64,000 nt of DNA, from NCBI GenBank assembly GCA_964036665.1, contig OZ038526.1:25110001-25174000 (forward strand). The letters are read 5' to 3'. Made by a program: the position numbers and the translations under genes. Origin of the DNA: Gordius sp. MW1 (taxonomy: Eukaryota; Nematomorpha; Gordioida; Gordea; Gordiidae). Under the pieces are notes generated by a model. The model made no database searches. It worked only from the letters and a program-made list of their open reading frames with translations, and had not been told where the DNA came from. This document shows, one piece after another, positions 3,270-63,714 of the stretch. Numbering within the stretch: position 1 is the first letter of the stretch; each line of letters begins with the position of its first letter.

Positions 3270-3287
3270 CCCATTAACGATTCAATT

Positions 3288-3506: not shown

Positions 3507-3618
3507 CCATACTTTCGCTCTGGGTAGTCGCGTACCAAATAATAATTGGGGAAAAGAGCTTGCTAAACAAAAATTAGTACACTAATAGTTAGACGACTGA
3601 CTCTTAGTCAGCGTCCAA

Positions 3619-3957: not shown

Positions 3958-3959
3958 TA

Positions 3960-7122: not shown

Positions 7123-7281
7123 AAAATGGTAATAATCATCACTCTCTACGAGCGATAAAAAATGTTGTAGTTCCCGATATTTTGAATTTTTTAGTTCCCA
7201 ATAAAAGAAAACGGAGAAATGTGATTCAATATAAACGAAATTAATATATTTACGCGATAATTATACACGGACGTTATCAAT
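7123..7281. other. Spacer between modular units U1 and U2
   Basis: AT-rich linker without recognised features. It separates the end of U1 (CATAGCAATTAA) from the hairpin start of U2. Confidence 0.5.
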
Positions 7282-11750: not shown

Positions 11751-14700
11751 CTATATAAAAATTATGAAACTGGTATATATAAATCTTGATTGTTTCGGCA
11801 GAATGCAAATTTATAAAGAGTTGTTTATTTTAATCATACAAACTAGTTAATTTTAAGTTGTTGCTCGATTAATTTTCTGATTCATTATACTTTGTATACA
11901 ATATTATGTTAATTTACTAATTAACTGATGGCATTAATTTGAAAAGATACGCCCATAAAAATCTTATATATAATTATTTATCAAATGTTAAATTAGAAAG
12001 ACCTAATATTTGAATAACAAATATCCTAGTTCATTGAATATCAAATCATTTGTTTTATATTAAAAACCATAACAATCTTCCAAATTTTCAACGGTATCAT
12101 TTAATCAGACATGATAATATGCAAATCTCCAAGAACACTAGTTTCAAATCAGCATATTTTTTATCTCTTTACAAAATTTTCCACTTAAATATGTAATTTT
12201 ATCAGATAAGTTTGCTTTTTACCATATTGCGATAATAACAAATTTTAAAAACTAAAACTATGATAAATTTGATGGTCATTCATTTAGAATAAATGATTAA
12301 ATAACGACTACCTAGCCCCGGTAACTCGTCTCGTGAAAAGCATAGAACCTATCTCGGTCAATTTAGCCTCGTCTCCAAACGTTGTCAACGTCATAGCTAC
12401 AAATAAATAATTCTTTTGGTTGAAAGTTATCCGAAAGGGTCTTACTTTTGAATAGTTAAAAGGTTTTCATATTTCGAATCAAACTCGAATATTAAAACGA
12501 AACACTACATTTAGAGAACATTTCATTAGTATTTTTCTCAAGTATAACCAAATAAACATTTCAGGGCAATTGCGTTTCAAATTTTAAAGCGACGTCAATT
12601 TCAACTCAACCTCATAATAAAAAATCTGGCAGGCCATGCCCTAACACCCCCCCCCCCCCCCCACTTAAGCTCCAAGTATCAAAATTGTATCATAATTAAC
12701 GATGATTATTAGATGTTTTTTGTTTTTTAAACCCATAATTGGCTCAAAACTATACTTAGAGACGCAACCAGACAAGCGTTTTATATAAATGATGGTACTA
12801 CAATTACGAATATGATTTTAATCGCATTTTTGGCCTCCCTTAAATCATTGCCAAACATTTGCTACGATTAAATTGTGGTTAGGCGCTTTAAATCAACTTA
12901 AAAGATACGCCTTCATTTTAATAACCCACACTATTTTAATGGGCTTTACACTTCTTCTTCTTCTTCATCGTTTTAAGGCCGTTTTCCAGGATCTCCTGGG
13001 TTAGCCTGTTTTCCCCTAATGCATTTCCTCCATTTTATCCGATCATGCGAATCCTGTTTTGTCAGACCCATTGCTTCCATGTCGGTAGCTAGAACAGAGG
13101 CCCATGTTGATTTCGGCCTCCCGCGCGGTTTCTTTCCAGATACCTCCAGGGAAGTACATCTCTTCACCCAGTCGTTGTCATTCTTCCGCTCCACATGTCC
13201 AAACCTTAGCCTGTTTTTCCGGATGACCTCGTTGATTGGCTCGATCCCGATTCTTTCTCTGAGTCTATTGCTTGTTATTCTTTCCCGTAGCGACACGTTT
13301 GACATCCATCTTATCATACGCATTTCTGTGCTTTCCAATTTGGCTTTGTGTATCGACATTAATGGCCACGTTTCGCTTCCATATACAAGACAACTTCTAA
13401 TACATGCCGCGTAGACTTTACCATTTAAAGTGAGTGAAACACCTTTTCCGGTCAAAAGAGGGGCCATCTCTCTAAACTTCTTCCAGGCTTGTCGTATCCT
13501 TGCTGTAACTGCCGAGTCAACATTCCCATCTGCACTTAAAGAGTCCCCGAGATAGGTAAAGGTGTTAACTTTTCCTAGCGTCTCCCCATTACCGATGTTA
13601 AAGTCGGTTATGGCATTATCCGGTAGAGGTCCTGTCACGCAGGGCTTGCAGCTAAAAGTACGGCTTGCCAATAAAAGACTTCCTTTCACACCGCTACATT
13701 TTTTGTGAACCCATCCTAGGCATTTTGTACATTGTATAGAGTTGCTAGCCACTCCTTTGTGACATACGCTACAGGGCCAGGCGCAAGTTGTCTCGGCGCT
13801 CTTCGTACTTTTCCCGCCAAACATCACCTTTGTTTTTCCCATGTAAACTTTTAAGCCCTTTTTCTCCATTCCGTTTTTCCATTTTTGTATCTTTGTAAAG
13901 AGATCAGCCTCACTCTCAGCCATTATCAAGAGATCATCGGCGTATAAAAGTTCCCATGGGAGTCCATCTCGCAGTTCTTTTGTCACCCCCTCCATTACGA
14001 GTATGAAAAGTAGGGGGCTTAAAACGGAACCTTGGTGTAGCCCAACCTTCACTTCAAAGCTTTCGCTATAGCCATCGTGGGTCCTCACTGCTGTTTGAGA
14101 TTCGTCATACATAACCATCACAGCCGTAACCAACCATTCTTCCACACCTGTTTTCCTAAGAGCCCATTTTACAACTTCCCGCGGCACCCGATCGAACGCT
14201 TTCTCTAGGTCTACGAAGGCGTAGTATAGTCTTTTCCCTTTTGCTTGGTGTTTTCTTGCATCTGTCGTACTATAAAGATGGCATCGGTGGTCCCTTTCCC
14301 TGGTTTAAATCCGAACTGGATAGCGTCGATGTTCGATCCCGGATTCTTTTCTCGAGCACCCTCTCTATAACTTTCATAGTTTGGTCGAGGAGCTTAATAG
14401 CCCGATATGATCCGCAGTCAAGTGGGACGCCTTTTCCTTTGTAGATTGGTAGAAGAACGCAATCGCTTATAGTCCCTTCCTGAATTAAAGCATTACACAG
14501 CTGTGTAAGCCAAACGACTCCCAAATGTCCAGAAGCTTTTACCATCTACGCCACTATTCCTGTTGGGCCTGCCGCTTTACCTTGTTTCGTTTTCTTTTTG
14601 GCACGCTGATTTCGTCAGTCCCAATCCAGCAGCAGGGTCCCTCCACTTTATCACAAACAACGTCATTGTCCCATGTATTCTCTTCGTTTAAGAGTCGTTT

Positions 14701-17700
14701 CATATAGTCTTTCCAAACTTTTTTGATTCCATCGCCATGGGAGATGATGTTACCCGCCGGCGTTTTAACGCATTTAGTCGCCACAACATCGAGTCGTTCT
14801 TTCGCCATTTGTTTGGCTACACGAAACATGTTTTTCTTCCCTTCCTCTGAGTCAAGGCGTAGAGCAAACTCGCATCTTTTTGTTTCCTTTATTCTGGCGA
14901 CGGTCCTTCTTGCAATTCTTTTAGCCTCTTGATACATAACCTTATCGCACCTTTGTTGAGATTCATGCCAGACTTTATAGCAACGCCTTTTATCTTCGAT
15001 AGCTTTTGCCGCCTCAGAGTTCCACCACCAAGTTTCCTTATGTCTTGGGGGCCCCTTTGTCCAACCACAAACGCGCGATGTTGTGTCAAGCCAAGCATTC
15101 TTCATAGCCGTCCATTTGTCGTTTACGTTCTTCGCCATCTCCACTGAGGTTCCATCAAGTGCTTCGGCAAAATCCCTCTTTTGAGTATCATCTTTCAAAC
15201 ACCACACCTTGAGTCTCGGGATATAGCGTTTCTTTGGATTTATAAGCCCCTTAATTACGAGATCCCCAACAATAAGACGGTGTTGTGTCACGCATTCTTC
15301 CCCAGGGACAACCTTGACGTTTTTCACCATACATCTGTCCGATTTTTTGACCATCATATAATCGACAGTACTTTTGAGGGTGCCCGATTCATAGGTTATA
15401 AGCTTCCTGTCTTCTTTCTTGAAGAAAGTATTGCATATAACCATCTGAGTAGCGTCCCCAAAATCCAGAATGCGTTCCCCCTCCGTGTTCCTGGTTCCGT
15501 CCACCATGGACACCTTCATAACCATCGATATTCGCGCCAACATGTCCGTTTAGATCCCCGCCTAAAATAATAGATTCTTGAAGGTGGGAAGTAATTTCCA
15601 TCAGACGATTTCAGAAAATGTCTTTTTCTTCATCGCTTCTTCCTACTTGAGGGGCGTAGGCCGATATAACGTTGAATAGCCTTTCTCCCATCGCCATCTT
15701 TATAACTATAATCCGGTCATTCCATCGCTTGACATCGATAACTTTGTCCACCCATTTCTCAGCGACAAGTATTCCTATACCAGCTTTTCCATCCTTGTGC
15801 CCTTGCCAGTAGAATTTATACCGCGCACCAATGGCTCCCATCATCCTAGCACCCTCTCCTTTCCACCTTGTCTCCTGTATGCAGCATATATCTATCCTTC
15901 TCCGATTGAGTGCTTCCACTACCTCGCCCGCTCTTCCCGTCATGCTCCCTATGTTCCAGGTTGCAACCCTTAGGGTGTCGCCTTTAGACCGGCCTCCTCG
16001 AATATTTTCAGGTCGATGACCATCATGAGGAGGGAATCCTTGCGGAGTTCCCAAAACGATTTGGCCAGGATCCTCATCTTTCTTTTTGACGTAGGTCGAT
16101 GAGTTAACCCACGGGGTACTTAGGGCTGTACCCCGCCCATTCGCCTTTGTATTCATAGGGGGAGATTGGAGCAGGTTTTACAGCCGGATGCCCTTCCTGG
16201 CGCCAACATGGCTTTCCACGGTTAACATATATTATAGATTTTAGCAAAAGTTCGCTTATAAGCTAATATTTTAAAATCAACATCTATCTTTTGACCTCTT
16301 TGGACTGATTCAGGAGGCCTAAAAATATTTGGAATGTGGTGGATAAATCTCCGATGTCATTCCCTAGCTCAATGGAAGAATATATGATTCTTAAACAACA
16401 TGGGCGGAAGCGAGATGAAATGATTAAGCAGTGCATAATGGGGAATATTAATATATTTGTGTTAAATAATGGTAATGTTGGATTGATAAAATGTAAGCTT
16501 ATAATAAAGTATAACAATTCATACTTGGCGCTCTGAACTCTCAAATAATTAGTATTTCAACAGTAGATTAAGTATAATATGATAAGAGACTCTTCAAAGG
16601 GGTATGAAAGGCGGTCAAGGGGCAAAACCAACAAATTATCTAATATAGTTCTAGCTAAAATTACAGAAGACCAAATTCATCGATGCATTGCCTATATATA
16701 TCAGAGGCCAGAAAAGCTCAGCCCGCTGCCCGAACCTGCCCGCCCGGCCAGTGGGCCGGGCAACTGTCGTAGATTTTGACTTTCGGGCGGGCCTGGGCGG
16801 GCATCCTAACAAGATTCGGGCAAATCGGACTTAATGATCTGTTTAAAAAATGTATTTTGTTTTCGTGTATGATTTGTCACTTTTTATTTGATTCTCTAAT
16901 GTTTTAATCCCAGTTATCATCTAAACAGAAGCAAAATAAAACTTTTTGGAAAATATAACGATATTAGTGCTAATTTTAAAACACATTATTTCGCGCAGCT
17001 CCAATAATTCGGGCATGGCAGGGCGGAAACATAGAAGTGTTCGAGCGGGCTCGGGCGGACAGAATAGTTTTAAAACGGACCGGGCCTGGTTGGGGCATAA
17101 AAATAGTAACATATCTGACCGCTGATATATATAGTATTCGAAAGACCCCACTAATACTTTTGCGAGTATACAAACTTTAAGTATTAGGAAAAAGGTCTAA
17201 TTTAGCTTAAAAAACCCATAAAACACAGTATTTTAGCGTGCCAAAAAATATATACTTTCATATCTATGCGCAAGAGGTGCCAAATGAAATATGGTTTTAA
17301 TATTTCAACGAACACATTAGGTATAATCTCGCTCCAATTCTCACCCAGAGAGATAGGATTATTTGGTGTTTCTAACAAACACTCCCCTTGGTTAAGAGCT
17401 AGGCTGCTCATTTTTTCCTTCAAAAGCGTATACATTTCACTTTGGTCAAGAAGCCAGCCCTTGTAGCCTTTGGCACCAACCGACAATAACGTTATCAGCA
17501 CGTCCAGTGAGGGTGTCAATGAAGCTCTACCTAATGAATTGTAAAAATATTAATGATTAACGATTTTAGGGTTTTAAACAAATTTGGATTTTAACCACTA
17601 TACTGTAATTGAATGTGTATACCAGTGGCGTAAATGACCCCCCCCCCGGAAAAAAAATTATTTTAGATCTAAAGTTTATATTTCATAGTTGTGCAACGTA

Positions 17701-20700
17701 ACTGACCAAGTAGGACACTTATTAATTTCTATGAATGACCTTCTTTATGTTTTATACCAGATTTTATAATTTTGATGTTGAAATAAAAATGTTATAGGAA
17801 AATTTTTAAAAATTCCCCCCCCCCGGGAGAAAATCCTGGCTAAGCGCCGGTGTATACATTTTTAGTACTAACACGGATTTATAGGCAATTTAGAGCCAAT
17901 TTTAATGGCAGAGGGCAAATTAAAAAAACTAGAGATGCACCGATACCACTATTTTATGCCGATACCGATACCAGCCGATACTTAAGATTTTTTTGCCGAT
18001 ACCGATACCATGCCGATACTTATAATAAAAAAAATTTTTATACTAAAAAATATATGCAAATTAAATATTATAAATTAAGTCACATCCAAATTTTGGTAGA
18101 TCAGAATTTTGACGATAAAACAATTGTAATTATAATTTATAATATAATATTAATTTATAATAATAAATTTTGTTATTAATTAATTCAAAAGTATTGTGAT
18201 TAATAGATAAATTTTATTATGGTACACTTTATATTTTATTAATACATAAATTTATTTTATAAAAAAGTAAATATACGTGTAATTAGCTTATATTAAACTA
18301 ATATTGAAAATTTAGTTCTCTTATGTTCAACTTAACAATTGTTAGTTGTTCTATTTTCTCCGAAAGAAGCCTTCTTCTCCTATTAGAATCTATCTCACCC
18401 ATCATACTGAATAATGATTCTAATGGCACTGTTGTTGGTGGTTGGTAGGAGATACTATAAATATTATTTTTTGAGTTTCATATTGAAAAAAGTATCGGCT
18501 TGGTAATTGCCGATACTAGCAAATCCTCGGGCCGATTCTTTTGGCAAGGTATCGGCGCCGATACCATGCCGATACTTGGTATCGGTGCATCTCTAAAAAA
18601 ACCCCAACCTTTTAATCCCGTAATCGAAATGTTTTAGCACAAACTTTTTAGACATGTGATATATTTTTTAGATACCAGCATTAAACGTAGTCGTGAAAAT
18701 AGTACTACGTTTCTTTAAAAACAGAATTTCATCACAATATCATACTTTAAACACTTGTAAAGTATATTACTATACTATAAAAATGAAGTTTTACACTAAA
18801 TAGCCAAAAATAAAAATGATTAAAATGAAAGTGAAGTTGTAACATCGCACCAGGATAGGTGGCAGCTACTTGATCACAGAAAGAACTCTCCACTTTATAA
18901 TTTTTCTCCTCACTCTTCTTTCTCGTTTTACTATTAGAACTCTTGAAATCGGCAATTATAGCACCACCGACGGGTACCATAAAATTTTTATCACAGCTCT
19001 GTACTATACAATCGATCCGACCGCCCGAATTTATGGCTTTGCTATAATGAAAACAAAAATTTATTAAAAAGTACAGTCTCCAATTTACGTAACAATATAG
19101 ACTACAAATACAAATTTTAGGGATGACAAACCGAGCTAAATCTAGGAGATAGTTTTAGAATCCAAAGCTTAATCTTAATAATTTCTTAACTATGTGAAAA
19201 AAGCAAATGATCTATGATTTCCGCAACCGCCAAAAAAACTCATCAAAAGTATATAATTGAAATCGAAAATGACTACTTTGCAAAGTAAATTTGAACCTAC
19301 GTCGTTTGGATAAAATAATAAGCCCTAAAATCACCAATACTTATAATACTAGAATAACGTTAAATATACAATATTTACAGCATATCTAAAAATATTTTGT
19401 GAATGCCTCTACCTACCAAAGCAACAAACTCATTAAATTACAATTCAAATATTATAAGCGCAACGTTATTTTATTTATAATAAAAAAAGCATAATTTTTT
19501 TTTATTAATTGTTATGCAAAAAATTTTACGGGATATTGATATAACTGTTTAAAAACAATAAAAATATAATATAAAATGTAGATGGACTTAATAATTTTGA
19601 CTATGGCTAAAGAATTCATGCCATAGGCGTTATTAACCACGTGAGGTATGTCGTGTTGTGAGCAAAGTGCGGCTATCCCTTTCAAATCATCGCACCCTCG
19701 AGGAGCGAAACAAGATGTTGTAGACAAAATGGCCGCCACCTGGTCAGATCCGCTACAATTTGTAATGGCTTCAGCGATGGCGGCCATATTGGTTTTTAAC
19801 TCGTCTCCAACCAAAAGAGGGTCTACTATGACTGGACTGAAACCTAGGAAATAAGAAGTAACATATTTAACCCTAGATAACTTTTCATAAAATTAGTTTT
19901 AAACAAGTAAATAAATTACAAATTTGTGATAGGTGTTAAGTAAATTTGATTTAGTTAATAATAATGATAGACGTCATCCAATTTGATGCGGGAGCAAATA
20001 AATTTAGTGTGGTGCCATATATTTTTTAAGTTTGCTAGCTAAAAACATGAAAATAAGACAAGAAGAAATGCTTAGAACATATAAATCAAGACCTACATAT
20101 AAAAAAACCTATAATATAAAAAATCATCAGACTCTTCCCAAATTGGTCATGAACCCGCAAATGATATGAAATCAATTTTAGCAATAAATTAGAGCCGTTA
20201 GATCATTTTGAACGAGTTCAATTTTTTCTGAACTTGAACTGAACTAGTTACCTTTCCAAAAATTGAACTATGAACTTGAACTAGTTCGTTTTTTTAAAGT
20301 TGAACTTGAACTAGTTCATCATAAATTTTTTTATTTAAAATAAATATATAAGCCGAGTTTGATTGTTTTTATTAACAAGAATTACACACGATTTCAACGA
20401 ATTTTTTGACATCAAGCAGAAAATCACCATAAAAATTGTAAAATTCAATAAAATTTCAATCCGTAGCTCTCTGCCATCTCGTTAATCTAATATATTTTTG
20501 CATGTATCATACACAATCATTTAGAAATAAACCTCTATTATAAAAAAATTATTAAACACGCCTTTTTAAATAGAAAACAACAATCGAACCTGTTTTCATG
20601 GCCGTAGCTAAGAGGGGGCAGGGAGGGGCGGCTGCCCCCCTTTAAATCCAAAAATTTGTTAAAATTTATTAAAATATGACTAAAAATTCGAAAAATGATC

Positions 20701-32832: not shown

Positions 32833-33624
32833 CTACCTTAGACGGTCCATCGTATGGGGGTTGTAAAGATTTTCTGACCGTGTCATTACGACAAAAACAT
32901 ACTCTGATGTTTTTAAATAATTAGGGATATATTCCTTCTTATCATGTTTTCTGGTAGGGCAGAATTTTAAATTTTGCATTATATCTTTAAGTCTAATTAC
33001 ATAACCTGGTTTAGATGATTCTATAAACGATTTTTGAAAAAATTCCCCTGGTAGCCTTAACGTCGTCCCATAAACCATTTCCGAAGGAGTGTATCCGATA
33101 TCTTCTTTGATTGTCGACCTAATGCTGAGAAGAATTAATGAGTGTTTCACTGTTGTATCTTCCTGTGTCATGATGGAAGCCTTTAATTGCCTATGGAAAC
33201 GCTCAACTAACCCATTAGAACACGGGTGATAGGCTGTAGTTCTGATATGGTCAGATCCTAATGTGGATGATAATTCTCGGAATAAACTGGATGTAAATTA
33301 AGCGTCTCTATCAGTAGTTATAACCTTTGGGACACCAAAATTGGCCACCCAGTATTAAATAAATATTTGTGCTAAATTTTCCGCTGTCTGGTTGATTGGT
33401 ATTGCGATTGGCCATCTCGTAAAGCGATCGATGGCTGTAAAAATATGGGTGTAGTGAGATGAAGGTGGTAAAGGGCCTACCACATCCAAATGCACGTGAC
33501 TGAACCTCTCGTCGGTGTCGTCAAAAATGCCGGGTGAAGTGATGGTGTGTTTGTTCACCTTAGATTTTGACATTTTATGCATTCTATTGTCCAATTCCGA
33601 ATATCTTTGTTCATTGATGGCCAC
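32833..33624 (-). pseudogene. gypsy 2 integrase, with an internal stop
   Basis: The frame at 33355-33624 carries HVHLDVVGPLPPSSHYTHIF and AIDRFTRWPIAIPI, the first catalytic Asp block. The second block (TDRDA then FTSS, near 33310) has a stop where Gln is expected. The third, with HPCSNGLVERFHRQLKA around 33200, holds the catalytic Glu. The C-terminal frame (32833-33171) continues with DIGYTPSEMVYGTTLRLPGE. The family inserts the cDNA copy into host DNA. Confidence 0.88.
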
Positions 33625-33750
33625 ACAAAACTGCGAGTAATGAGTTTTTGAGTTGCCCGAATCCCGGAATGTGAGAGAGAGTGAAAGTGGTTGAAGAAAT
33701 TTTTCCTCAGTCTTGTAGGTATAAGTGGTCGCGGTGCACCTGTAGATATG

Positions 33751-34320
33751 TCACACAGAATGTCTTTTTGACAAATGGCTTTTTAATTTCACAAGACGCA
33801 AAGATTTTGTGTTAAGCAGTAACTCCGGATCATCCATTTGGTTCATAACTATTTGGTTGTCATTCGGACAAAAAGGTAGAGTTAGATACGTTATGTCTGA
33901 CCGAGATAATGTGTCCGCTGTAATATTACTATTACCTTTTATAAAGCGAATGTCGGTACTGAATTGCGAGATATAATCCAAATGTCGAATCTCTCTGGGT
34001 GAGTAACGATCAACTTTTGCCTGGAAAGCATAAATTAAAGGTTTATGATCCGTAAATATAGTGAAATGACGTCCTTCCAGTATGTGTTTGAAATGTTTAA
34101 TCGCCAGAAAAATAGCTAGTAATTCTCGTCCAAATGTACTATAGCGTGTTTGAGCTGCTAATAGTTTTTATGAAAAAAATGGTTGTTGTTTGTTATCAAT
34201 TATTTGGTGTAAAACTCCCCCTACTGCTATGTTCGAAGCATCTGTGGTTAACGTTACCCAACAGTTTGGTTTTAAAAATCCTAAATTAGTTGCTTTAATA
34301 TTTTTTTTAGGAGATTAAAT
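33751..34320 (-). pseudogene. gypsy 2 RNase H region, broken
   Basis: Fragments such as the TDASNIAVGGVLHQIID-like block (about 34190-34250) and the late segment FSTDIRFIKGNSNITADTLS (33751-33981), typical of gypsy RNase H, are present in different frames. Not functional. Confidence 0.75.
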
Positions 34321-35168
34321 TAATTAATTTCTGCGTCCGTTATTTTAATCTCTTTCTCATCAAATAGGTCTGTAAGTGGTTTCGTTGAAACACAATTTGG
34401 TATAAACCGTCTATAAAAATTCACCATACCTAAAAAAGTTTCAAACTCTTTTGTTTGAGGAATCGGAAAATCCCTAATCGCGTCAATTTTGTTTGACAAG
34501 GGGCGTATGCCATTTTGATCGATGTGATGACCAAGAAAGTTTAATGATCTTACCCCCAAAGAACGTTTTGAGAGATTTATCCGAATACCGTATGTTTGTA
34601 ATCGTTTAAAAACTGTTGTGAGGTGTAATTTGTGTACACGTTCTGTGGAACTGGCGATAAGTAAATCATCAATGTAGGCGTACACAAAATCCAAACCATT
34701 AAAAATGTCATCTATGAGGCGCTGAAATGTTTGTGCTGCGTTCCGAACTCCGAAAGGCATTCTTAAAAATTCAAACAACCCAAAAGGTGTTGTGATTGCG
34801 GTCTTCGGGATGTCATCTGGTGCCATCGTTTGATGGTAAGCTTTTACCAAATCCAACTTTGAAAAAATGAATTTGCCTGTTAGATTTAAAGTAAAATCAT
34901 GTAAATGTGGTATCGGGTATCTATCAGGTCTTGTTGCGTAATTAAGCATTCTAAAATCTCCACATGGACGCCATGTCCCTGGGGCTTCTTTTGGGACCAT
35001 GTGTAAGGGGGATGACCATTTAGTATGTGAAGGTCGTATTATTCCTAATCTCCTCATTTTTTCAAATTCTTTTTTTGCTATTTGAAATTTTTCGGGGTTT
35101 AAACGTCGTGGAGAACAATGGATCGCTGGTCCTTTTGTTATTATATGGTGTTTGGTATTATGTTTCAC
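34320..35168 (-). pseudogene. gypsy 2 reverse transcriptase
   Basis: A 282-codon open frame covers nearly the whole RT. It has [29 protein letters not shown] (catalytic Asp), [20 protein letters not shown], the active site [11 protein letters not shown], and [18 protein letters not shown] leading to [14 protein letters not shown]. All catalytic residues are kept. Neighbouring frames for protease and RNase H are interrupted, so I treat it as part of a dead element. Confidence 0.93.
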
Positions 35169-35402
35169 TTTGTCATTAAAATCCGGTGGCTTGGTAATAT
35201 CCGGAAATTGTTTTAATATGGAGTAAAAATCATTATTTTGTGAAATTGGGCTGCTAATGGGATTAGTTATATTTGATACCTTTAGAGAAAAATTTTGTGG
35301 ATTAATTAGGCGTTAAACCAAAATATGATATAAAATCAGAACCTAATATAGATGAATGTACATCTGCTATCAAAAATGTCCATTTGAATTCTCGTTTTAA
35401 AC

Positions 35403-35666
35403 CTATAATAACGATATTTTCCCAATAGTATTTATATCGCTCGAATTTGCTGCTTTTAAACATATATCGTTTAGTGTTACCTTCATTTTAGTGGTAGGTG
35501 GTATTACACTGATTTGCGCTCCAGTGTCAATCAAATAGCGGAGCCCTGATATTTTGTCAAATACGTAGAAAAGGCGATTATTGTTGTTATGGCCGGATCC
35601 AGCTATCGCCTTTCCTGGTAGGCCGGCCTTTTTAAACCTTTTCCAAAATAACATGGTTGAGCACAT
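35403..35666 (-). pseudogene. gypsy 2 aspartic protease segment
   Basis: The 87-codon frame contains YLIDTGAQISVIPP with the intact catalytic Asp-Thr-Gly. It is preceded by GSGHNNNNRLFYVFDKISGL, as in many gypsy protease starts. It sits between gag and RT. Confidence 0.85.
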
Positions 35667-35799
35667 TTCCTGGCGTTTGATCCCCAGGTGTCATGGTACC
35701 AGCACCAGGGTCTGTCGCTCGAAATCCCAGGTGGGCGAAAAGGGGTCTGGGTTTGACCTATCTTTTCTAATGTCCTATTTAGAGCAGATAAAACATCTG

Positions 35800-36377
35800 T
35801 TAGTTCTTTAGGGTATGCATCAGTGGAGTGTTTTTTTGGTTATGAATGTTATTAACATAATTAGTTTTTTTGGCCAGAACGATGCGGTCGGCTGTTTCCG
35901 CCAATTTCTCCAGTGCAGTATCTTCAGTAAACGAGACTAATATGGGAATTAGTTCACAAGGTAATTTATTGAGCCAGAGTTCCTTTAGAATCTTTTGGTC
36001 AAGAACGTATGTTCCCACTAAACTCTTCATGTATCGCAAAAGCTGAGATGGAGATATATCCCCTAAATCCACTGCCGTTAGGAATTCCATCAATCTTGAT
36101 TCATCGGAGTCGCCTACCCTCTTGATAAGTGCTTGTTTGAGTTTCTGAAATGGTTGATCAGGTGGGACATTAATGATTAAATTCTCCACTTCCTCAGCGA
36201 TTTCGGGAGGTAATGTCTCAAGAATATAACCAAATTTTGATTTCTCAGAGGTAATTCTTCTTGCCTGAATACGGCTTCTGCCTGAGCTAGCCAAATTCTA
36301 ACATTTCTGCGGTAAAATGTGGTTATTTTCAGTTGGATAGTTGCTTCACATCCCTCTTTCTCTGTAGAATTTTCCAT
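35800..36377 (-). pseudogene. gypsy 2 gag, two frames
   Basis: The N-terminal frame (36177-36377) includes RRNVRIWLAQAEAVFRQEEL. The second (35800-36294) carries YILETLPPEIAEEVENLI, LKQALIKRVGDSDESRLMEF and LGDISPSQLLRYMKSL, the conserved capsid region of gypsy gag. They overlap with a one-frame shift. No zinc knuckle was seen in what remains. Confidence 0.85.
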
Positions 36378-38469: not shown

Positions 38470-40040
38470 AACACAACAAATTATTTGCTAAGTATTTTAT
38501 TCAAATTGCTAAGTATTTTTAGCGTCATTGCTAAGTATTTTATTAATTTGCTAAGTATTTAATTCGTTTGCTAAGTATTTAAATTAATGCTAAGTATTAA
38601 ATTCAAATGCTAAGTATTTTATTCATTTGCTAAGTATTTAAATAAATTTTGCTAAGTATTTTATTGTTTTGCTAAGTATTTTATGTATTTGCTAAGTATT
38701 TTATTTGTTTGCTAAGTATTTTAATGTTTTGCTAAGTATTTAAATTATATGCTAAGTATTTAAATATATTATGCTAAGTATTTAAATTATTGCTAAGTAT
38801 TTAAATATATTATGCTAAGTATTTAAATTATTGCTAAGTATTTAAATATATTTTGCTAAGTATTTAAATTATTGCTAAGTATTTAAATATATTATGCCAA
38901 GTATTTAAATTATTGCTAAGTATTTAAATAAATTGTGCCAAGTATTTAAATTATTTGCTAAGTATTTAAATAAATTATGCTAAGTATATTATCTAGGTTT
39001 ATAAATAAATTATGCTAAGTAAAGATTTTATAAATTTAAACAAATAAAGCTGTCTGTTGATTTTAAATTCATGTTTCAAATTTTGACTAATGAGGTCATG
39101 AAATTAAGTAATAAAAATGCAGTTTTTGAAGTTCTTGTCATTGATGCAGCCAGTGCAATTCATAATGCATTTAAAGCTGTTTTGGGGGATAAAATGGTTG
39201 TGTTATAGGGTTAGGGTTAGGGTTTATTGTAGTTGAATAAAATCTCTATCAATTATCCTATTGGCTATTTAGATTATTTTATATATGAAGTCATTATAGA
39301 ACATGAAGGGTATTTCTTCACCTACAAATAAATAATCATAATTTTTTTATTCAAATCTAAAATAAATTATACAATATAAAATTGAAATATTATATTTTTC
39401 AACTATAAATTTTGGTAATTCATTAAAATAATTCCCATTAAAACTTAACTTCAATTTCAACACTTTTTTGTGTCATAAATAAAACTTTGAATTAAAAAAC
39501 TTTAATAACTTAGCACTTCAAAATAGAAAACCTAGCATTTTTAAAAATTAAACATTTTCTTTGAAATTAATACCATTAAAACTTTGTCCTTTTTAGCTTT
39601 AAAACCTTATTATCTTATATTTTTTTAATACTCAGCATTTTGATTAAAACTCATAATTTAGATTTTTTAAATAAAATACTTAGCATTTTAATAAAAAAAA
39701 CTTAGTATATCAAAATGAAAACTCTGCAATTTAGTAATAAAAACTTAGCATTTATAAATAAAAAACTTAGCATTTAAAAATGAAATACTTAGCATTTCCT
39801 TTAAAATACTTAGCATTTAAAATAAAATACTTAGCATTTCCTTTAAAATACTTAGCATTTAAAAATAAAATACTTAGCATTTAGATTAAAATACTTAGCA
39901 TTTAATAATAAAATACTTAGCATTTAGATTAAAACACTTAGCATAAAATACTTAGCGTTTTTTAATAAAATACTTAGCACTTTAATTAAAATACTTAGCA
40001 TAAAATACTTAGCAATTTGTAATTATTTACTTAGCAGTTA
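38470..40040. repeat. GCTAAGTATTT tandem arrays facing each other
   Basis: From about 38487 to 39020 the motif TGCTAAGTATTT recurs roughly thirty times in direct orientation, with AT-rich spacers of variable length, 15-25 bp apart. From about 39640 to 40035 its complement AAATACTTAGCA recurs about sixteen times. The central part (39020-39640) is unique AT-rich DNA with a GGGTTAGGGTTAGGGTTT run (39208-39225). The right edge TTAAATAACACCC (40041) reappears inverted at 41740 beside another short array. The layout is that of a foldback element, but no target duplication could be found. Confidence 0.8.
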
Positions 40041-41240
40041 AATAACACCCTTTTATTAATTATCCCGTGTAAGATCAAAAGGAGTATGTGGTACATTGGC
40101 ATCTAGTGCTAGGTAATAAAACAATGAACGATACGCGAAAAGAGAAGGGGGGATCGAATAAGTGTGTATGAGATACGCGGTATTACAACTTCTGTGTATG
40201 AAAGCGCGGGGGGGGGAAATCCGTATATACTACAACTTTTGCATAGGGGGACATGGGGGGATCCGTATATCCGACAAGGGAGAATCCGTATATACGACAA
40301 TGTCCATATAAATTTAAATTTGGTGGTAGGAATTGACGCAATTAGCAATCTCATGTTAATATTCAATTTTAATCAATGTTACTTTTATATAGGGGGTAAG
40401 ATGAGACAAAACCCTTTCAATCTTAAAGCTATTTGTCTTAAATTACTTGGGGGGGGGGGGGGGGGGGAGGCAACTGCCTCTCCTACCCCCTTCCCCCCCG
40501 GCTAAGCCTATTTTTAAATGTTCAATTTTTAAGCCGATCTTTCTAAATTTATTTCGTTTAATAATAGATTATACAAAACCAACTTCTTTAATTAAGAGTA
40601 CAAGTATTTGGCATGAGTCAATTTGTAATTTAACAAGGGTTAAACAAGCTACAACAATATGTAACCATTGCATTCAAACATTCCAAATGACTTTGAAATT
40701 ATTTATTTTAGTAGTAAAGGCTACCTATTTAATTATGGCTTCATCTTCAACCTCAAATATGTCCAAAGGTGAACCTAAATTTATGCGTTAATTTTTTAAA
40801 CCTTTATAGATGATACAGGTTGAACCTTGGCTTTTCTTCCATCTCAAAAATGTCCAACGTTGAAATATATGCTAACTTTTTAAGTATTTATAGTAGTAAA
40901 TGAGACCAGTTTTACTTGGCTTCGTCTTCCACCTCAAAGCTGTCCAACGCTGTTTTTACTCTATTTTCATGAAATCTTCTCTTCATCTTCTACACTAAAT
41001 CCGCCTAACTTTAAAAATAATTTTTTGTGTTACTTTTTAAATCTTTAAGGAATACCCTAAAATATGTCTAACATTCCAAGTTTTCTCCTTATATTTATAA
41101 TTAAGACAATATGTTTCAAGTTCAAACCTTATAACCCTAACCTTGTATTTTACCTCAAATCTATTAAATACATGAAGAATTCAATGTGTTGATTCTATAA
41201 AATCAATATAGCCCTTAATATTGCAAGCTTTATACGCATA
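40041..41240. repeat. Diverged CCTCAAA-TGTCCAA repeats in AT-rich DNA
   Basis: Three diverged units of roughly 110-120 bp carry GGCTTCATCTTCAACCTCAA, TGGCTTTTCTTCCATCTCAA and TGGCTTCGTCTTCCACCTCA, each followed by a TGTCCAA motif (40737-41000). Upstream are a G-run (40449-40467) and GATCCGTATAT repeats (40220-40300). No coding evidence. Confidence 0.5.
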
Positions 41241-41317
41241 CTATAGACTAGTGATGGGGAAATAGCGTTTTAAGGAGCTAAAGCTATAGCACATAGTCAC
41301 TTTAAGTGCTATAAGCT

Positions 41318-41580
41318 ATAGGAGATGGGAGGTTTGAGGTGCTATAAGCTATAGGAGATGGGAGGTTTGAGGTGCTATAAGCTATAGGAGATGGGAGTTT
41401 GAGGTGCTATGTGCTATAGGAGATGGGAGGTATGAGGTGCTATGTGCTATAGGAGATGGGAGTTTGAGGTGCTATGTGCTATAGGAGATGGGAGTTTGAG
41501 GTGCTATGTGCTATAGGAGATGGGAGGTTTGAGGTGCTATGTGCTATAGGAGATGGGAGTTTGAGGTGCTATGTGCTATA
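41318..41580 (+). repeat. 32-33-bp minisatellite, left arm
   Basis: About nine direct units with two alternating variants: GTGCTATAAGCTATAGGAG and GTGCTATGTGCTATAGGAG, each followed by ATGGGAGGTTTGAG or ATGGGAGTTTGAG. The right-arm counterpart at 42775-43020 has about eight units in inverted orientation. Confidence 0.9.
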
Positions 41581-41726
41581 GCCGATAGCACTTAAATGCG
41601 CTACTCCTATAGCACCGGCGCTAACACTGGGAATAATTTCAATGAAAACAATAGAGTATAATATGAACTTGTGTGTAATCTAATAAACAATTTTCCATTA
41701 AAAATATATTGTTCGAAAAAACAAAA

Positions 41727-41960
41727 TTAAAAAAGGGTGTTATTTAACTACTAAGTAAATAATTACAAATTGCTAAGTAATTTATGCTAAGTATTTTAAA
41801 GGATATGCTAAGTATTTTATTTTTGAATGCTAAGTTTTTATTATTAAATTGCTAAGTTTTTATTTTGATATGCTAAGTATTTTATTTAAAAAATCTAAAT
41901 TATGAATTTTAAACAAAATGTTTAATATTTAAAAAAATACTCTTTTTCAATCGGGGAGGG
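41727..41960. repeat. Short GCTAAGTA array fragment
   Basis: AAGGGTGTTATTTAACT, TAATTACAAATTGCTAAGTA and four more GCTAAGT units. It is the inverted equivalent of the right edge of the array at 39900-40055 and lies inside the foldback element loop. Confidence 0.7.
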
Positions 41961-42196
41961 GGGGGGGGGTTAATTCAAAACCTAGTTATGCCCTACCCTA
42001 CCCCATGTTTTTGAGAATAAAAAAATTAAACTCCCCCTTCCCTTAAGTTAATCCATATCCCATCAGGGCGTATAAACCTTTTTAGATTTTGGAGAAATTA
42101 TAATATTGGTTGTATTTAAATCGTGGTCAGTTGAAGAAGAGGTAGTGGATAAAGACATTAAAAAAGAGAGCGAAAAATTAATTTTCTTTTTTCAAT

Positions 42197-42310
42197 GAAT
42201 AAAAATAAAATGAGTGAGTCTGACTCAGACTCACTCATGTTCTTTTATGCGTTTGCGTACTCAGCTCAGACTCAGACTGTCTGAGTCTGAGTACGCAAAC
42301 GCATAAAAGT
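42197..42310. repeat. Near-perfect palindrome at the foldback centre
   Basis: The half TTTTATGCGTTTGCGTACTC is mirrored by GAGTACGCAAACGCATAAAA. Between them lie CAGACTCAGAC and GTCTGAGTCTG, centred near 42277. To the left TGAGTGAGTCTGACTCAGAC is itself self-complementary. Outside are mirrored blocks at 41985-42060 and 42362-42425 (AGTTTAATTTTTTTATTCTC). It should form a long hairpin. Confidence 0.85.
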
Positions 42311-42392
42311 TCACTCAATAGTATTGTTTTCCTTTTAATTGAAACATATTAACTTAATAAAAGGGGGAGTTTAATTTTTTTATTCTCAAAAA

Positions 42393-42555
42393 CATGGGCG
42401 TAGGGCATAACTAGGTTTTGAATTAAGGGGGGGGGGGGGCAAACGGTTAAAATAAAAGTTGAATTAGGGAGGGGCTAAATAAAAAAAAATTTTAATTTGT
42501 AAGGGTTTTTTTACATTGGAAAATTTTTTTTTCCGTCATTCAGAGGGGGGGGCGA
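42393..42555. mobile_element. CATGGGCGTAGG-type MITE, diverged copy
   Basis: Begins CATGGGCGTAGGGCATAACT, then TAGGTTTTGAATTA and a G-run, as in other family copies, with a second G-run near 42545. An inverted start of the same kind lies at about 41985-42007. No right terminus or duplication was recognised. Confidence 0.55.
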
Positions 42556-43111
42556 CTTATTAATAAAATAAATGTAGAAGCAATGCAAAATAAAATTAAA
42601 GTCATACATTTAATTAAATTTATATTAGAATAAGTGTAGTTAGATGGTAAGATAGGGCAAAAAAATTATATTCAGATGTATTTTAATATTTAATAAAAAC
42701 AAAATAAACAATTAAAAAAATTATTCCCAGTGTTAGCGCCGGTGCTATAGGAGTAGCGCATTTGAGTGCAATCGGCTATAGCACATAGCACCTCAAACTC
42801 CCATCTCCTATAGCACATAGCACCTCAAACAGCCCATCTCCTATAGCACATAGCACCTCAAACTCCCATCTCCTATAGCACATAGACCTCAAACTCCCAT
42901 CTCCTATAGCACATAGCGCCTCAAACCTCCCATCTCCTATAGCCCATAGCACCTCAAACCTCCCATCTCCCATAGCTCTAGCACCTCATACCTCCCATCT
43001 CCTATAGCTTATAGCACTTAAAGTGACTATGTGTTAGTAGACATAGCGTATTTAATAGGCTATTCCCATCAGCTGGGAGGTGCTAAGCGTTTTCCCACCA
43101 CTACTATAGAC

Positions 43112-47906: not shown

Positions 47907-50900
47907 GTAAATTTTTGTAAAAATAATTTTGTCAATAAAAAAATAGAGTGTGGCAATGATGCTTCCACCAAGAAGTAGTCAAATGCATATAAATCAAGAT
48001 TGGCCAAGCGTGTGGCCAGTCCCTGCGAGTTATAAACCATCAATAGTACCCTTACCACTTAGACAGGGAAGGGTTTCTCGTAAAAAACCACTTCCATCAA
48101 ATATAGGAAATTTGGAATTAATGAAAATACCTAATTTTCTTCATTTAACACCTCCAGCAATAAAGAGACATTGTGAAGCAATTAAAAGTATTTTTTTGCC
48201 ATTAAATAAATTTTATCTTTTTTTAAAGTGTGGCAATATATATTTATATAAATAACGTATACTATTTATATATAAAAAATTTAGCCAATATATATATGAT
48301 GTGCTTGTAATCCTTAATTATTCAAGCTAAAAATCAAATCTAATAATTCCTGTTTGTTATTCGGCAGTTGATCATAATAGTATTAAATTATTCAATATTA
48401 TAAACTAATTATGGTTTCTGTATCAAAAACTCTTTAATTGGTGGTTCTTAACATCAGAAATATCCAGTTTTTACTTATTTAATTTAGAAATAGACAAATT
48501 ATTTTAGGACTTTATAAACAATTTAAGTTATTAGCTTCATTAACTTTATGTAATTTGCTTAAATCAATTGGACTCAATTAAAGAAATTCTGTATGTGGTC
48601 CTAATACATTTAGATTAAAATTCTTGAGTACAATTAAGTTGTTTACTTAGTCACATTGACTATCAAAAGGTTGTTCAATTGGTTGTTAAACAATAAATAA
48701 CCTTTTTAAATATGTAGATTTAATGCTGATTTCTTATGATTATAAAGTCCTTTTATATTTAACTAGAATTTTGTACACCCTGGCCCTCAGCTTTTGCATC
48801 ACCATACAAAAACCGTGGCCTAATACCTTTCCAAAATATCGGTGTTAACTCTATATCTGGAGTTTACGGGCTTGACATTGTTAAAACTGAGCACTTATTG
48901 CCTCCTAGTGTCAATAATCCATACATTGAACAACCTAAAGAAATGGAAAATTTGAGTGTAGATTCAGAAGGCAAAGCTAGTATCCAGGCTAGCATTGCTG
49001 TAGTAGAAATATCGACTAAAGCTGATGAAGAGAGAAAACATTTTGAAAAGTGCTTGTCAGAACATATTGCACGGCATTATCCTATTGAAATCACCACAAC
49101 CGATTATTGTTTTTCTGGTCCTTCCTCCAAGGATAATAGGGCCCGAAAGGTTACTATGGATGTAAGTATATTTCTTTTGAATTGACTACATGGATTACTT
49201 GACCAAGAAGAGTTTTGTTGCCTATTTTTGAAGTAGTAGACCTTTTTATAAGTAAATAACATTAGACGATTATATGGCTTTCTAAAAAAATTGATGTTTT
49301 ATTTCAGTTATTTATAAAGTTATTAGTTGAAAATAAACCGCGGTCTACACTTTTTACCGGCGGTTAGGATATTTTGTTGGAAAAAGGGCAAATTATTTTG
49401 TGAATTTGGTTTTGGACGAGTTAATAATAAGAAAACTAAAAGAGGTAAATGACGCTTTACCTAATTTTTAAACTTGCCCATTGAAATATAATCAAGGCTT
49501 AATACCTAGATTTTTATATTTTTAACATCTCTGTTTCTTTTAAATTTACAAATATATTTTGTGAATTTTAAATCAACATATCCGCCTAAGTTTGGAACTT
49601 TTATTTTTCTTAATTTATAAAAATAAAAATCAGAATAGTCAATATCCACTCTACCACGTGAATTTTTTGAAAGCACTCGTTAGGATCCGATAAAAAATTT
49701 TAGAGAAGAGGCGGCTAGAGCAATATAATTAGTGAACTCGGTCTTATAATAACTTTCAAGAGTTTTCTACCATTGAAGGGGGGGGGGCGGTATACCACCA
49801 TCTCTCTGAAATAATCTACATGACTTTTAAGGTCACCATAAACTGCACTCCTATAGCCAGCATTAAATTTTACAATATCTACGATATAATGGATCACGTG
49901 TACAGGTACATGTGGAGGCGCTGAAATTGGATTATCACGGGACGGATAAATTGTTGAGATTAGTTAAGGAAAGGTACGAGCCCGAAAGCAAAAAACTCAC
50001 CATCAAAACCGATCGGTGTCCGTTAGGCGCGCAAAACAAAGATTACGCTTATTACTTGTTAACTGCCTTATTCCACGAATCCAAGGTATCTATAACTCAA
50101 TGTGTGCTTTTTTCTAGAAAAAGAAATTTTTGGTGATCGTGTGTTTTGTATTTCAGAATAGGTTTACTATTAATTTTTCATTAAAATGCTTTTATTAGGT
50201 AAAAATTATCCATAAAATATTGAATAAACGAGGAGAGTGAAAGTAAAAATTTCTTCACATTTTTAAAGTTTGCTTCAAGGTTCAGCAGGACTAAATAATA
50301 TATTTATTAGATGACACAAATTTATTAAAATTTATTGCCCCTGATCATTTCTTATTCCTATATTTCAAGAGCGTGGAGCCTTGGGAAGAAAATGGTAAGA
50401 GTGTGAAAGATCTCGAAATGTATTTTTGGTATAAAATGCCATCTAGCGACTCCGTCGTGCAAACGGTGCGAAATTTGAAAAGATTGGCCCTCAATAATGA
50501 TGTAAGGATGAGTGAAGTATTTTTTAGTTGCAAACATAGACTAGATAGACTGCTCACACACAACGCACAAAATGTGTACCCTTTTTCCACCATTTCGATG
50601 TGAACATGGTAAAGTGGTGATCATAAAGAAATTAATAATTTTCGCAAATTAAATGATCTTAATAAGGTAAATTAAAAAATATTGAATTGGGTAGATATCA
50701 AAAACAGCATTTTTAAATAGACATCATTTAAAAAAAATATAAAAATTAAAAATGCGATTCAAGTTTGTTTAACAATATAGCACCATCAATATTTTGTATA
50801 ATATTTATTTATTGACGTTCGTTTTGATTTATAAACCAATGAGGAAGGTAAATTGACTGTTATTGTACAAAAGTACATGGTTAATCCAGTTGCACTCTTC

Positions 50901-60040: not shown

Positions 60041-61744
60041 TTAATTGCTATGCAATTTATGGGCTCGTTTTTTGTTGTCCGTCCGTCCCTATCTATTTGC
60101 ATTGGGCATATTAGGTTATCGATTTTTTAAATTAATGCATGAGAAAAAGGTGCCCCACCCCTCATCTCTATCTCCCTCGCTGTGTTATTTTTAAAATTAA
60201 TGCATAAGAGGTGCCCCACCCCTCATCTCTATCTCCCTCGCTTTCGGGCGAGGTCGGGTTTTAATTGCTATGTTAAATTAATGCATAAGTATATCTATTC
60301 GTTTTTGAATAGGGTAACATTGATATTAATTGCTATAATTACCCGCCCTCCACTACAAGGGCCTATGCCTCTACTGATATGGGTCCCTGTGCCCCTACAA
60401 AAGCATGCCTCTATTAATGTGGGTTCGAACCCCGGCGAATGTTCTGAATTGCTGGTTCGATTCCCGGAGAGGGCAAATTTTTTTTTTATTAAATTAATAT
60501 ATTTTTCCTGTTACTACCATTGATAATATGACTTTTTGACCGTCCGCTTGTTCTATTATTGTTTCATTTTAATAATAAACATAAATAAAAGTTGTTTACT
60601 TTTAATTGCTATGCACTTTAACTAGTTTTTGGGTTAGAATCCCGGAGTTTTTTTGACTCTTATGATTGTTCTTGTTACTATCATTGAAAATAAGACTATT
60701 TGGCCGTCCGCTGGCTGCTGACCAATGAAAAAAATGACCATTGGCCAAAATGTGAATTCGAGTTTATTTTTTCGTTTTTTTTGACTATTATGATTGTTCC
60801 TGTTACTACCATTGCTATTATGACTTTTTGGCCGTCCGCTGGCTCCTGACCGATGGAAAAAATGACCATTGGCCAAAATGTGAATCGAAATTATTTTTTT
60901 CGTTTTTTTTTACTATTATGATTGTTCCTGTTCCTACCATTGCTATTATGACTTTTTGGCCGTCCGCTGGCTGCTGACCAATGGAATAAAATGACCATTG
61001 GCCAAATGAGATTCGAAAATTTTTTTTTCGTTTTTTTTGACTATTATGAATTTATATCCACTTTTACCGTGTCCTGCCTGCTGACCAATGGAAAAAAATG
61101 ACCATTGGCCAAAATGTGATTCGAAAATTTTTTTTTCGTTTTTTTTACTCTTATGAATTTATATCCATTTTTACCGTGTGCTGGCTGCTGACCAATGGAA
61201 AAAAATGACCATTGGCCAAAGGGAGCATCAAATTTTTTTTTCCCGTTTTTTTGGCTATCATTGACTTATAAAGTATCTGTTGGTACTGACCAATGGAGAA
61301 AAAATGACCATTCGCCAAATTTTTGATTTTTTTAATTAAAAATTGTTCAAATTCAACAAAAATTTCTCCCAACAATTCTGCAAATTCTTAACATTGTGAT
61401 GTTTTATAATATAATGTTTGTTAGACCCATAATCACTAAAGGCCGTAAAAACTAATGTAATACGCAACTAGATGCAAACACTAAATCTAACCCTAACCCT
61501 TGCCTATATTACATTTTGCCTATATTACATTTTGCCTATAAATGGAAAATTTGTATAAATAATGAATTAATCATTAAGCATTTAATACCCCCCTATAGGC
61601 ATTCTTGCCCCTTCCCACCTTTCTCGCCCATAAATTGCATAGCAAATATGATACATTTATAGGAAGTAAAGATGAGTCGTCCCCCCTTCCCTTCCCCCCT
61701 TCCCTTCTCCCCTCCCCCTTCCCACGAGGGCCGAAGGCCCGAGT
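60041..61744 (-). repeat. Modular repeat unit U3 (inverted copy of U2)
   Basis: Starts TTAATTGCTATGCAATTTAT and GTTGTCCGTCCGTCC and ends GAGGGCCGAAGGCCCGAGT. Long blocks are reverse complements of U2 in the same order: the CTCATCTCTATCTCCCTCGC pair, the B-box-like GGTTCGATTCCCGGAGAGGG, five CCATTGGCCAAA repeats, the AACCCTAACCC run, the duplicated TATTACATTTTGCC and the C/T-rich run. The two units lie 51 kb apart in opposite orientation. Confidence 0.85.
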
Positions 61745-61830
61745 TTATTCATAATCTTTGATTTACCCTTATCCATCACAGGTTTTATTTTACTATTTAC
61801 ATCCTTTTTTACATTGTAAATATTTTTATT
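61745..61830. other. Spacer between modular units U3 and U4
   Basis: AT-rich linker of under 100 bp without features. Confidence 0.5.
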
Positions 61831-63714
61831 ATTTGCTATGCAATTTATGGGTCGTTTTTTGTTGTCCGTCCGTCCGGCCGTCCGTCCGTCCACCAAGTTA
61901 TTTACACCAGCTTTCATCTTTCTACTTGCAGGTGCGAGTTCATTTCCCGGAGAGGACAAATTTTTTTTTTGAATTAAATTAATATTTTGTTCTTGTTAAT
62001 ACCATTGATATGAATTTTTGACCTTCCGCTGGCTACTGACCAATGAAAAAATGACCATTGGCCAAATAAATCGAATTTTTTTTTTCGTTTTTGAATTCAT
62101 ATAATAGGTTAACATTGATAAATACCCTATGCCCTTTCGTAGAAGGGCCTATGCCTCTACTGATATGGGTACCTGTGCCCCTACAAAAGCCTATACCTCT
62201 ACTGATGTGGGTTCGAATCTCGGCGAGGACAAATTCTTAATTGCTGGTTCGAACCCGGAAAGGGCAAAATTTTTATTTTTTTTTAAATTAAATTAATATA
62301 TTGTTCTTGTTAACCATTGATAATGTGACTTTTTGGCCGTCCGCTGGCTGGCCAAAGTATAAATCGAAAATTTTTTTTCGTTTTTGAATTGTTATATTAG
62401 GTTAACAATTACCCTGTGCCCTCTCCTAGAAGGGCCTATGCCTCTACAGATATGGGTCCCTGTGCCCCTACAAAAGCCTATGCCTCTACTGATGTGGGTT
62501 CGAATCCCGGAGAGGGCAAAATTTTTATTTTTTTTTTAATTAAATTAATATATTGTTCTTGTTAATACCCTTGATAATATGAATTTTTAACCGTGTCCTG
62601 GCTACTGACCAATGAAAAAAATTACCATTGGCCAAATTGTTATTCGAAATTTTGTTCGTTTTTTTTCAAATTAATATATTGTTTTTGTTAATACAATTGA
62701 TAATATTTTTTTGGCCGTCCGCTGGCTACTGACCAATAGAAAAAAATAAAATTTACCATTGGCCAAAGTGTGAATCGAAATTTTTTTTTCATTTTTTTGG
62801 ACTCGTATGTATTTATAGACCCTATCTTGTTACTGACCAATAATAAAAATGACCATTGGCCAAATTGTCTATTTATCCTTTTTGACCGTGTCCTGGCTAC
62901 TGACCAATGAAAAATTCTTTATATCTTTTTAATTTAATATTGATTTAAACTTATTACAATAATTTTAAAGTTATTGGCCATTAGTTATCATATTGTATTT
63001 CAAATCTGCGTGTATACGCTCTAATATATATTTACTCAAAATTTATTCACATAAAAATTATTCCTGACTAAATAAATTTTGAGACTGATGTTTTAATATT
63101 TTAAGCAGAATGTCTACGATGTTTGCATTAAAACTTTGCGATAGTAATATCTATTTTATCGATTTATTATGGTCGATAAAAATGCGGCTGTTTAATATCT
63201 CTGTGCAATCGGCAGCTAAGCACACACACACATATATATTGATCCACCAAGTTATTTAAACCAGCTTTCAACATTCTGACTTGCGTTCGAGTTCAATCCC
63301 CGAAGAGGACAAATTTTTTTTTTTAAGTTAAATTAATATTTTGTTCTTGTTAATACCATTGATAATATGACTTTTTGACCTTCCGCTGGCTACTGACCAA
63401 TGAAAAAATGACCATTGGCCAAATAAATCGAAATTCTTTTTTCGTTTTTGAATTGGTATATTAGGTTAACATTGATAATTAGCCTATGCCCTCCCCTACA
63501 AGGGCCTATAAATAATTAACTAGATATTTTGCATTTAATACCCGCCCCCCTCATGGGCATTCTCGCCCCTTCCCATTTTTCTCGCCCATAAATTGCATAG
63601 CAAATATGCTACTTATACGGATTATAGATGAGTTTCGTTCCCCCTTCCCTTCCCCCCTTCCCTTCCCTACTTCCCTTCCCCCTCTCCCTTCCCACGAGGG
63701 CCGAAGGCCCGAGT
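61831..63714 (-). repeat. Modular repeat unit U4
   Basis: From TTGCTATGCAATTTATGGGT and GTCCGTCCGTCCGGCCGTCC to the hairpin GAGGGCCGAAGGCCCGAGT (63696-63714). It carries three or more tRNA-like B-box strings (for example GGGTTCGAATCCCGGAGAGG at 62496) and TTGGCCGTCCGCTGGCTACT / ACCATTGGCCAAA repeats. A unique AT-rich piece (about 62930-63250) with a short CA repeat (63220-63232) interrupts it. It is the inverted counterpart of U1, with different internal repeat numbers. Confidence 0.8.

Follow-up and report, generated by a model that had tools for sequence, protein, structure and literature searches.

Foldback transposons without a known transposase are hard to classify, Tetris being one example (PMC4079207). 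The same question is raised by an element at positions 41249-43103 of a 64,000-nt stretch of the Gordius sp. MW1 genome (contig OZ038526.1, 25,110,001 to 25,174,000, forward strand; hereafter, the window). An earlier sequence-only reading described it as a hAT-mobilized foldback that had acquired or amplified a satellite in its arms. To what superfamily does this element belong, and are its repeat arrays a later addition or an old part of the transposon? We consider it a non-autonomous, internally deleted copy of a hAT parent of ~4.1 kb, whose transposase would have moved such copies in trans and for which the arrays are putative docking sites; we put the probability of this reading at about 0.85. 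Within one genome, foldback-like deletion copies are thus linked to a longer copy that shares their ends and carries a transposase gene, which places them in the hAT superfamily.

Insertion, target site, and other copies

The element is 1855 bp long, and its termini and flanking 8-mers were read directly in the window. The left terminus TAGTGATGGGGAAATAGCG (41249, forward strand) and the right terminus TAGTGGTGGGAAAACGCTT (43103, reverse strand) each directly adjoin CTATAGAC. Both tips read TAGTG, and the terminal motif TAGTGNTGGGNAAA occurs within the window at these two sites only. Tandem Repeats Finder reported a left array with a period of 33 bp (96% matches) and a right array of 32/33-bp units (91% matches). 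The arms have the foldback design of tandem repeats in inverted orientation: 41472-41639 is 98% complementary to 42718-42885 over 168 bases. The ends, the oppositely oriented 32- to 33-bp minisatellite arms, and the perfect 8-bp duplication of the sequence-only reading were all confirmed, with arrays of 8.5 and 7.5 units.

A 400-base query made of both flanks with the 8-mer once between them matched, over its bases 5-400, the locus C8:25314213-25314607 at 94% identity. Read base by base, this locus has a single CTAAAGAC at the junction; at that point in the window, two copies of CTATAGAC enclose the element. The unoccupied locus is a paralog located 161 kb away, not an allele. Since neither the element nor the duplication is present there, the window element is an insertion, and the clean single 8-mer fits a site that was never occupied. 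That two inverted minisatellites came to lie beside a coincidental 8-mer by chance or through misassembly is extremely improbable given this paralog and the many further copies; nothing in favor of such an artifact was found.

The genome searched comprises 212 Mb in 12 contigs. The end pattern TAGTGRTGGGRAAANRS gave 77 + 85 matches (162 in total) and the reversed-pattern control 0 + 0. A search with the element itself returned at least 260 matching pieces among the best 40 of 1189 candidates; because only these 40 were scored, copy counts are lower bounds. Thirty end-pattern matches were extracted as loci, 24 of which belong to the family of the window element as judged by the next bases, while 6 do not. 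We found 29 end pairs and omitted one (C1:9617315/9613715, with differing 8-mers and not in one stretch); the remaining 28 were picked as best matches and hence are no random sample. Identical 8-mers flank 22 of the 28 pairs, two pairs have one mismatch, and four do not match as read, among them C8:28324653, whose left tip is eroded. Copies with identical 8-mers are 1262 to 4226 bp long. Further copies with these termini, for which the earlier reading had proposed to search, are therefore present. The C8:28324653 copy sits inside a different repeat, which occurs uninterrupted in stretch L077 and at two places in the window (near 61690 and near 7369); its insertion site, in purine-rich simple sequence, is less clear. 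At C1:4296689 and C1:4305510, two right ends ~9 kb apart have 400-bp flanks that are 99.75% identical, reflecting a local duplication beside the transposon.

A longer copy with a hAT transposase gene

The genome was searched with the Dimer_Tnp_hAT profile (PF05699; best 150 of 3413 candidates). The match at C2:17689194 falls inside a 4116-bp copy (C2:17687835-17691950, duplication GTTCAATA) whose ends and arms are those of the window element and which encloses a broken hAT transposase gene. A second match, C2:20334038, lies between arm pieces of a copy in which no left tip was detected. Pieces of this gene (family A) were read in stretches L031, L011, and L010. Scanned pieces from L011 and L010 match Dimer_Tnp_hAT (1.1e-23) and match zf-BED and DUF659 below the curated cut-offs; the L010 piece matches Hermes in PDB (4.1e-12), and the N-terminal transposase piece had no match in PDB. 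In the protein collection, two weak homologs (24-31% identity) were found. Three successive sets of family A gene pieces and right ends, spaced by ~12 kb, lie at C3:19.10-19.13 Mb and seem to result from a tandem duplication that includes the element; one array there has ~28 units.

A 192-residue N-terminal query recovered the family A gene copies and also a piece of the window element (42066-42140, reverse strand). Its translation, which opens with a start codon, breaks at ~42070. At this junction, where one base is shared, the window copy jumps from near 791 (left) to near 3095 (right) of the 4116-bp copy, and bases 822-1841 of the element align with 3095-4087 of that copy at 83%. Since the gene remnant is broken at the junction, the window copy is a deletion derivative. 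All of the other 27 paired copies, the 4226-bp copy C1:1196475 included, align to the 4116-bp copy close to its two ends, and its interval 1252-3094 is matched by none of them (0/27). Thus, the hAT-mobilized, foldback-like element of the earlier reading is supported by termini shared among copies and by the hAT gene in the longer one. An autonomous hAT with the same termini, which that reading had suggested looking for, was found in part: the gene does lie between these termini in the 4116-bp copy, but it is broken.

The superfamily assignment rests on several features. Target-site duplications are 8 bp, as seen in the identical pairs and in the unoccupied paralog with one copy, and the C-terminal dimerization domain is present in copies with the same ends, in family A as well as in a second family, B, described below. 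The tips of hAT elements carry the short terminal motif YARNG, which corresponds to the TAGTG found at both tips here. With regard to the Ac and Buster groups, Buster-group duplications follow the pattern nnnTAnnn; it occurs in 4 of the 22 identical duplications, which does not favor a Buster-type target pattern. T stands at position 2 in 15 of the 22 (P = 0.0008) and A at position 7 in 10 (P = 0.16); the full Hermes pattern nTnnnnAn, in which T is favored at position 2 (PMC10368747), occurs in 7.

We also considered whether the element could be a non-autonomous foldback from a different superfamily (P/Galileo, Mutator, or Drosophila FB) whose 8-bp duplications are coincidental. Drosophila FB duplications are 9 bp long, and those of the present element are 8 bp. 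No THAP or P-type family was among the Pfam matches, with E up to 0.1, in the pieces scanned. Although Galileo and Tetris do have tandem-repeat arms (PMC3688188, PMC4079207), the longer copy has a hAT transposase between these same termini and 22 of the 28 pairs have 8-bp duplications, which makes this explanation highly unlikely.

The parent of the window copy would therefore be a hAT transposon of ~4.1 kb in which each 8-bp duplication is followed by an asymmetric outer end (L or R), a 32/33-bp array, and an inverted inner domain, with the gene in the center. The gene would encode a hAT transposase with a BED-like finger and would be read from the R side, probably with introns. Deleted copies would be mobilized in trans by transposase from some intact copy, and the foldback appearance would be a by-product of the end architecture combined with internal deletion.

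Age and possible function of the arrays

Related genes whose N-terminal piece is 59-62% identical to that of family A (family B) were found at C2:15915399, C7:8201981, C6:14517054, and four places on C4. In the C2 stretch (L075), open frames of 320, 148, and 101 residues follow in order; they match Dimer_Tnp_hAT (1.3e-23) and, below the cut-off (24.2 versus 27 bits), hAT-like_RNase-H (4e-05), and TTDLW, TTDNA, and SERLFS, noticed by eye, are candidate catalytic motifs. This stretch has two 32-bp arrays of opposite orientation (225-426 and 3814-3964), and inverted inner domains come next; the left-type tip is cut off. In the C7 stretch (L079), the arrays have ~5.8 and ~7.3 units and one tip is eroded. 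The C6 copy, of which the ends alone were read, has both tips and identical 8-mers (ATAATAGG). In the C4 stretch (L077), an inner domain without an array is found on the covered side; the array-bearing piece opposite (C4:320049-320585) lies outside the stretch. Further family B arms were found at 73-99% identity (best 40 of 309 candidates). At C8:5161056-5193168, repeated matches at short steps, with arms 77-78% like those of family B, appear to be a tandem array of a relative.

The units of the two families align in one register, with a score equaled by 2 of 3000 shuffles. Outer ends also agree between families, type by type (see table); within one family, the L and R ends align over 30 (A) or 38 (B) bases only, with a shift or large gaps. 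Since arrays are present both in the transposase-carrying copy and in family B, at ~60% N-terminal identity, the arms are an old part of this hAT lineage. The suggestion that a foldback had acquired or amplified a satellite is thus not borne out.

Array lengths were compared in 26 of the 30 stretches in which two arrays were found; we divided the copies into 18 young and 8 old by identity in the element search. Stretches C3:7213200, C4:21780700, and C8:32779000, with one array of 67-81 bp each, and C3:12405700, with both arrays on one side, were omitted, and array lengths consequently look more even than in reality. Unit spacings of 25 and 40 were taken as artifacts of variant-core-motif detection, and separately measured array lengths were used instead. 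Among the young copies, right arrays measure 243 bp in 9/18 and 241-245 bp in 13/18; left arrays measure 275-276 bp in 6/18 and 242-302 bp in 14/18, with outliers of 170, 229, 372, and 579 bp. The old copies spread more widely (left, 241-482 bp; right, 113-362 bp), and one further array reaches 901 bp. Since young copies mostly share array lengths, their left-right difference was mostly inherited from the source copy.

Homogenization between the arms of one copy seemed to be indicated by an unstratified test (0/5000 permutations; 24 of the 26 copies, two with unclear ends being left out) and disappeared when the subfamilies were tested apart, with the ends of these two copies set by hand. The identity between a copy's own left and right arrays was 96.81%, versus 96.79% between copies, in the young group (2139/5000 permutations reach the value) and 95.54% versus 95.50% in the old group (2400/5000). 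The unstratified signal is thus due to subfamily structure, and arm-to-arm homogenization was rejected. At C3:24356101, the arms are identical but for one unit, which may reflect a single arm conversion, although the left array matches the right array of another copy equally well. Ongoing unequal exchange, proposed earlier from the differing arms, is therefore not supported, since young copies mostly share lengths and own arms are no more alike than those of different copies. Changes in array length do occur, as can be seen from the young outliers, the spread in old copies, and C3:24356101.

Could the arrays be a neutral satellite, amplified by slippage in the arms and without a role in transposition? 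The spread of array lengths among the 26 copies (113-579 bp), the arrays of 67-81 bp in three omitted stretches, and the single 901-bp array would fit this explanation, as would a 484-bp copy that lacks arrays. In addition, the left inner domain of young copies has taken up a fragment of another minisatellite, which shows that this region does admit repeats. However, family B has the same period, orientation, and position despite ~60% N-terminal identity and differing units, and lengths are mostly constant in young copies. Taken together, we regard a neutral satellite as a serious but unlikely alternative to docking arrays.

By analogy with known transposons, the arrays would most likely be docking sites for the transposase. 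Short subterminal repeats are bound by the transposase in Herves (motif repeats; PMC3143072) and Hermes (BED sites; PMC10368747), and the Galileo tandem repeats contain extra binding sites for the transposase THAP domain (PMC3688188). A period of ~32 bp corresponds to about three turns of the helix, and both families have retained the plan. The mirrored units may accordingly present, about three turns apart, sites for the N-terminal zinc finger, in which case copies that retain arrays would stay mobile after loss of the gene. Arrays are retained in most copies, and the gene is lost in the shorter ones.

Several observations weigh against this account of the window element. No uninterrupted family A gene was seen, all four genes read (4/4) being broken; introns could account for some of the breaks, and three of the N-terminal pieces are open. 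The zf-BED scores are 17.5 and 17.3 bits, below the Pfam cut-off of 20.6 bits. The 4226-bp copy (C1:1196475), whose middle differs and whose N-terminal gene pieces lie on the opposite strand, is rearranged. A perfect duplication flanks C8:32781588, which has only ~2.5 left units. The 484-bp copy (C2:13354699) has no array, and its 8-mers are one mismatch apart. Alignments of tip and unit are no better than those of shuffles (in three tests, the score was reached by 2737, 3923, and 2321 of 5000 shuffles). Derivation of the unit from the tip was therefore dropped, and the sequences give no hint that one domain recognizes both. Finally, Hermes BED domains bind the left end only (PMC10368747), whereas arrays are found here on both sides, so transpososome assembly may differ.

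A further proposal, which we advance tentatively and at rather less than even odds, is that, through ~40% N-terminal divergence, this hAT lineage kept a mirrored array of 32-bp units at either end for helically phased docking of the transposase, together with asymmetric tips. If so, both ends would be loaded, hAT transpososome assembly would differ, and the spread of internally deleted foldback-like copies would be explained. With two families built alike, it can be tested directly what long repeated arms do and whether the Hermes asymmetric-loading model applies to hAT elements with mirrored arrays.

Hermes and Herves share a hAT transposase with the present element, and Hermes also 8-bp duplications with T favored at position 2. 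In contrast to the mirrored 32-bp arrays and inverted inner domain described here, their ends are dissimilar, with short terminal inverted repeats of 17 and 11 bp, respectively. Galileo, of the P superfamily in Drosophila, likewise harbors tandem repeats within long terminal inverted repeats (PMC3688188) but has a P-type transposase, unlike the hAT enzyme with a BED-like finger considered here. Tetris of Drosophila virilis is similar in its three-part arms (flanking domain, tandem repeats, and inner domain) and 8- to 10-bp duplications; it differs in its ~220-bp units, no transposase was found, and its authors suggested a Mutator placement (PMC4079207). Drosophila FB and sea urchin TU foldbacks likewise have inverted arms of short tandem repeats. 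TU elements have 8-bp duplications and could be the nearest relative in design. Tandem-repeat foldback ends are already known from P-type and other elements; what may be new here is a hAT case with its transposase, TU being possibly of the same kind. Within open papers, covered by titles and the starts of abstracts (subscription journals and repeat databases being outside this scope), no hAT element with mirrored minisatellite arms and a transposase was found.

Parts of the element and neighboring repeats

Coordinates of the parts are collected in the table. The left inner domain is partly an inverted copy of the right one (42002-42052 versus 42348-42398, 94%), and ~28 bp further into the right outer end (43018-43103) a second tip-like stretch, CTGATGGGAATAGCC, aligns to the left tip. 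A GCTAAGT repeat within the element was considered as the element's own amplification, a reading dropped after comparison had shown it to be a piece of another repeat, nested in the left inner domain of young copies.

Table 1. Parts of the element, in window positions.
Feature	Position	Strand	Basis
Left target-site duplication CTATAGAC	41241..41248	.	Read directly; single copy (CTAAAGAC) at unoccupied paralog
Left outer end, L type, TAGTGATGGGGAAATAGCG..GCTAAAGCTATAGCACATAG	41249..41305	+	52/59 aligned bases agree with family B L-type end
Left array, 8.5 units of 32/33-bp repeat	41306..41581	+	Tandem Repeats Finder
Left inner domain	41582..42070	+	Ends at internal-deletion junction ~42070
Nested fragment of second repeat family (end of neighboring element 38479-40061)	41725..41890	-	Score reached by 0/200 shuffles
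Transposase remnant, start codon and ~30 codons	42071..42158	-	25 residues at 92% identity; translation
Right inner domain and, probably, upstream part of the gene	42159..42775	-	Alignment to 4116-bp copy
Right array, 7.5 units, same repeat as left in opposite orientation	42776..43017	-	Tandem Repeats Finder
Right outer end, R type, TAGTGGTGGGAAAACGCTTAGCACC	43018..43103	-	46/53 aligned bases agree with family B R-type end
Right target-site duplication CTATAGAC	43104..43111	.	Read directly

The neighboring element at 38479-40061 is a high-copy repeat with arms of ~20- to 22-bp GCTAAGTATTTTA repeats in opposite orientation; 37 of 39 other top matches (best 40 of 544 candidates) span 75% or more of the 1574-bp query, with 84-98% identity. 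Oppositely oriented relatives of a repeat with tandem units of ~61-128 bp (CCAATGGTCATTTTTTCCATTGG) lie at 5895-8941 and 60122-62789, and similar stretches occur in L011 and L077. Open frames at 12973-16177 and 32833-36297 (reverse strand) presumably encode reverse transcriptases of LINE and Gypsy type, judging by motifs seen by eye, and exon-like frames at 19512-19892 (reverse strand) and 48763-49185 (forward strand) resemble what we take to be SEPSECS and a mitochondrial ribosomal protein.
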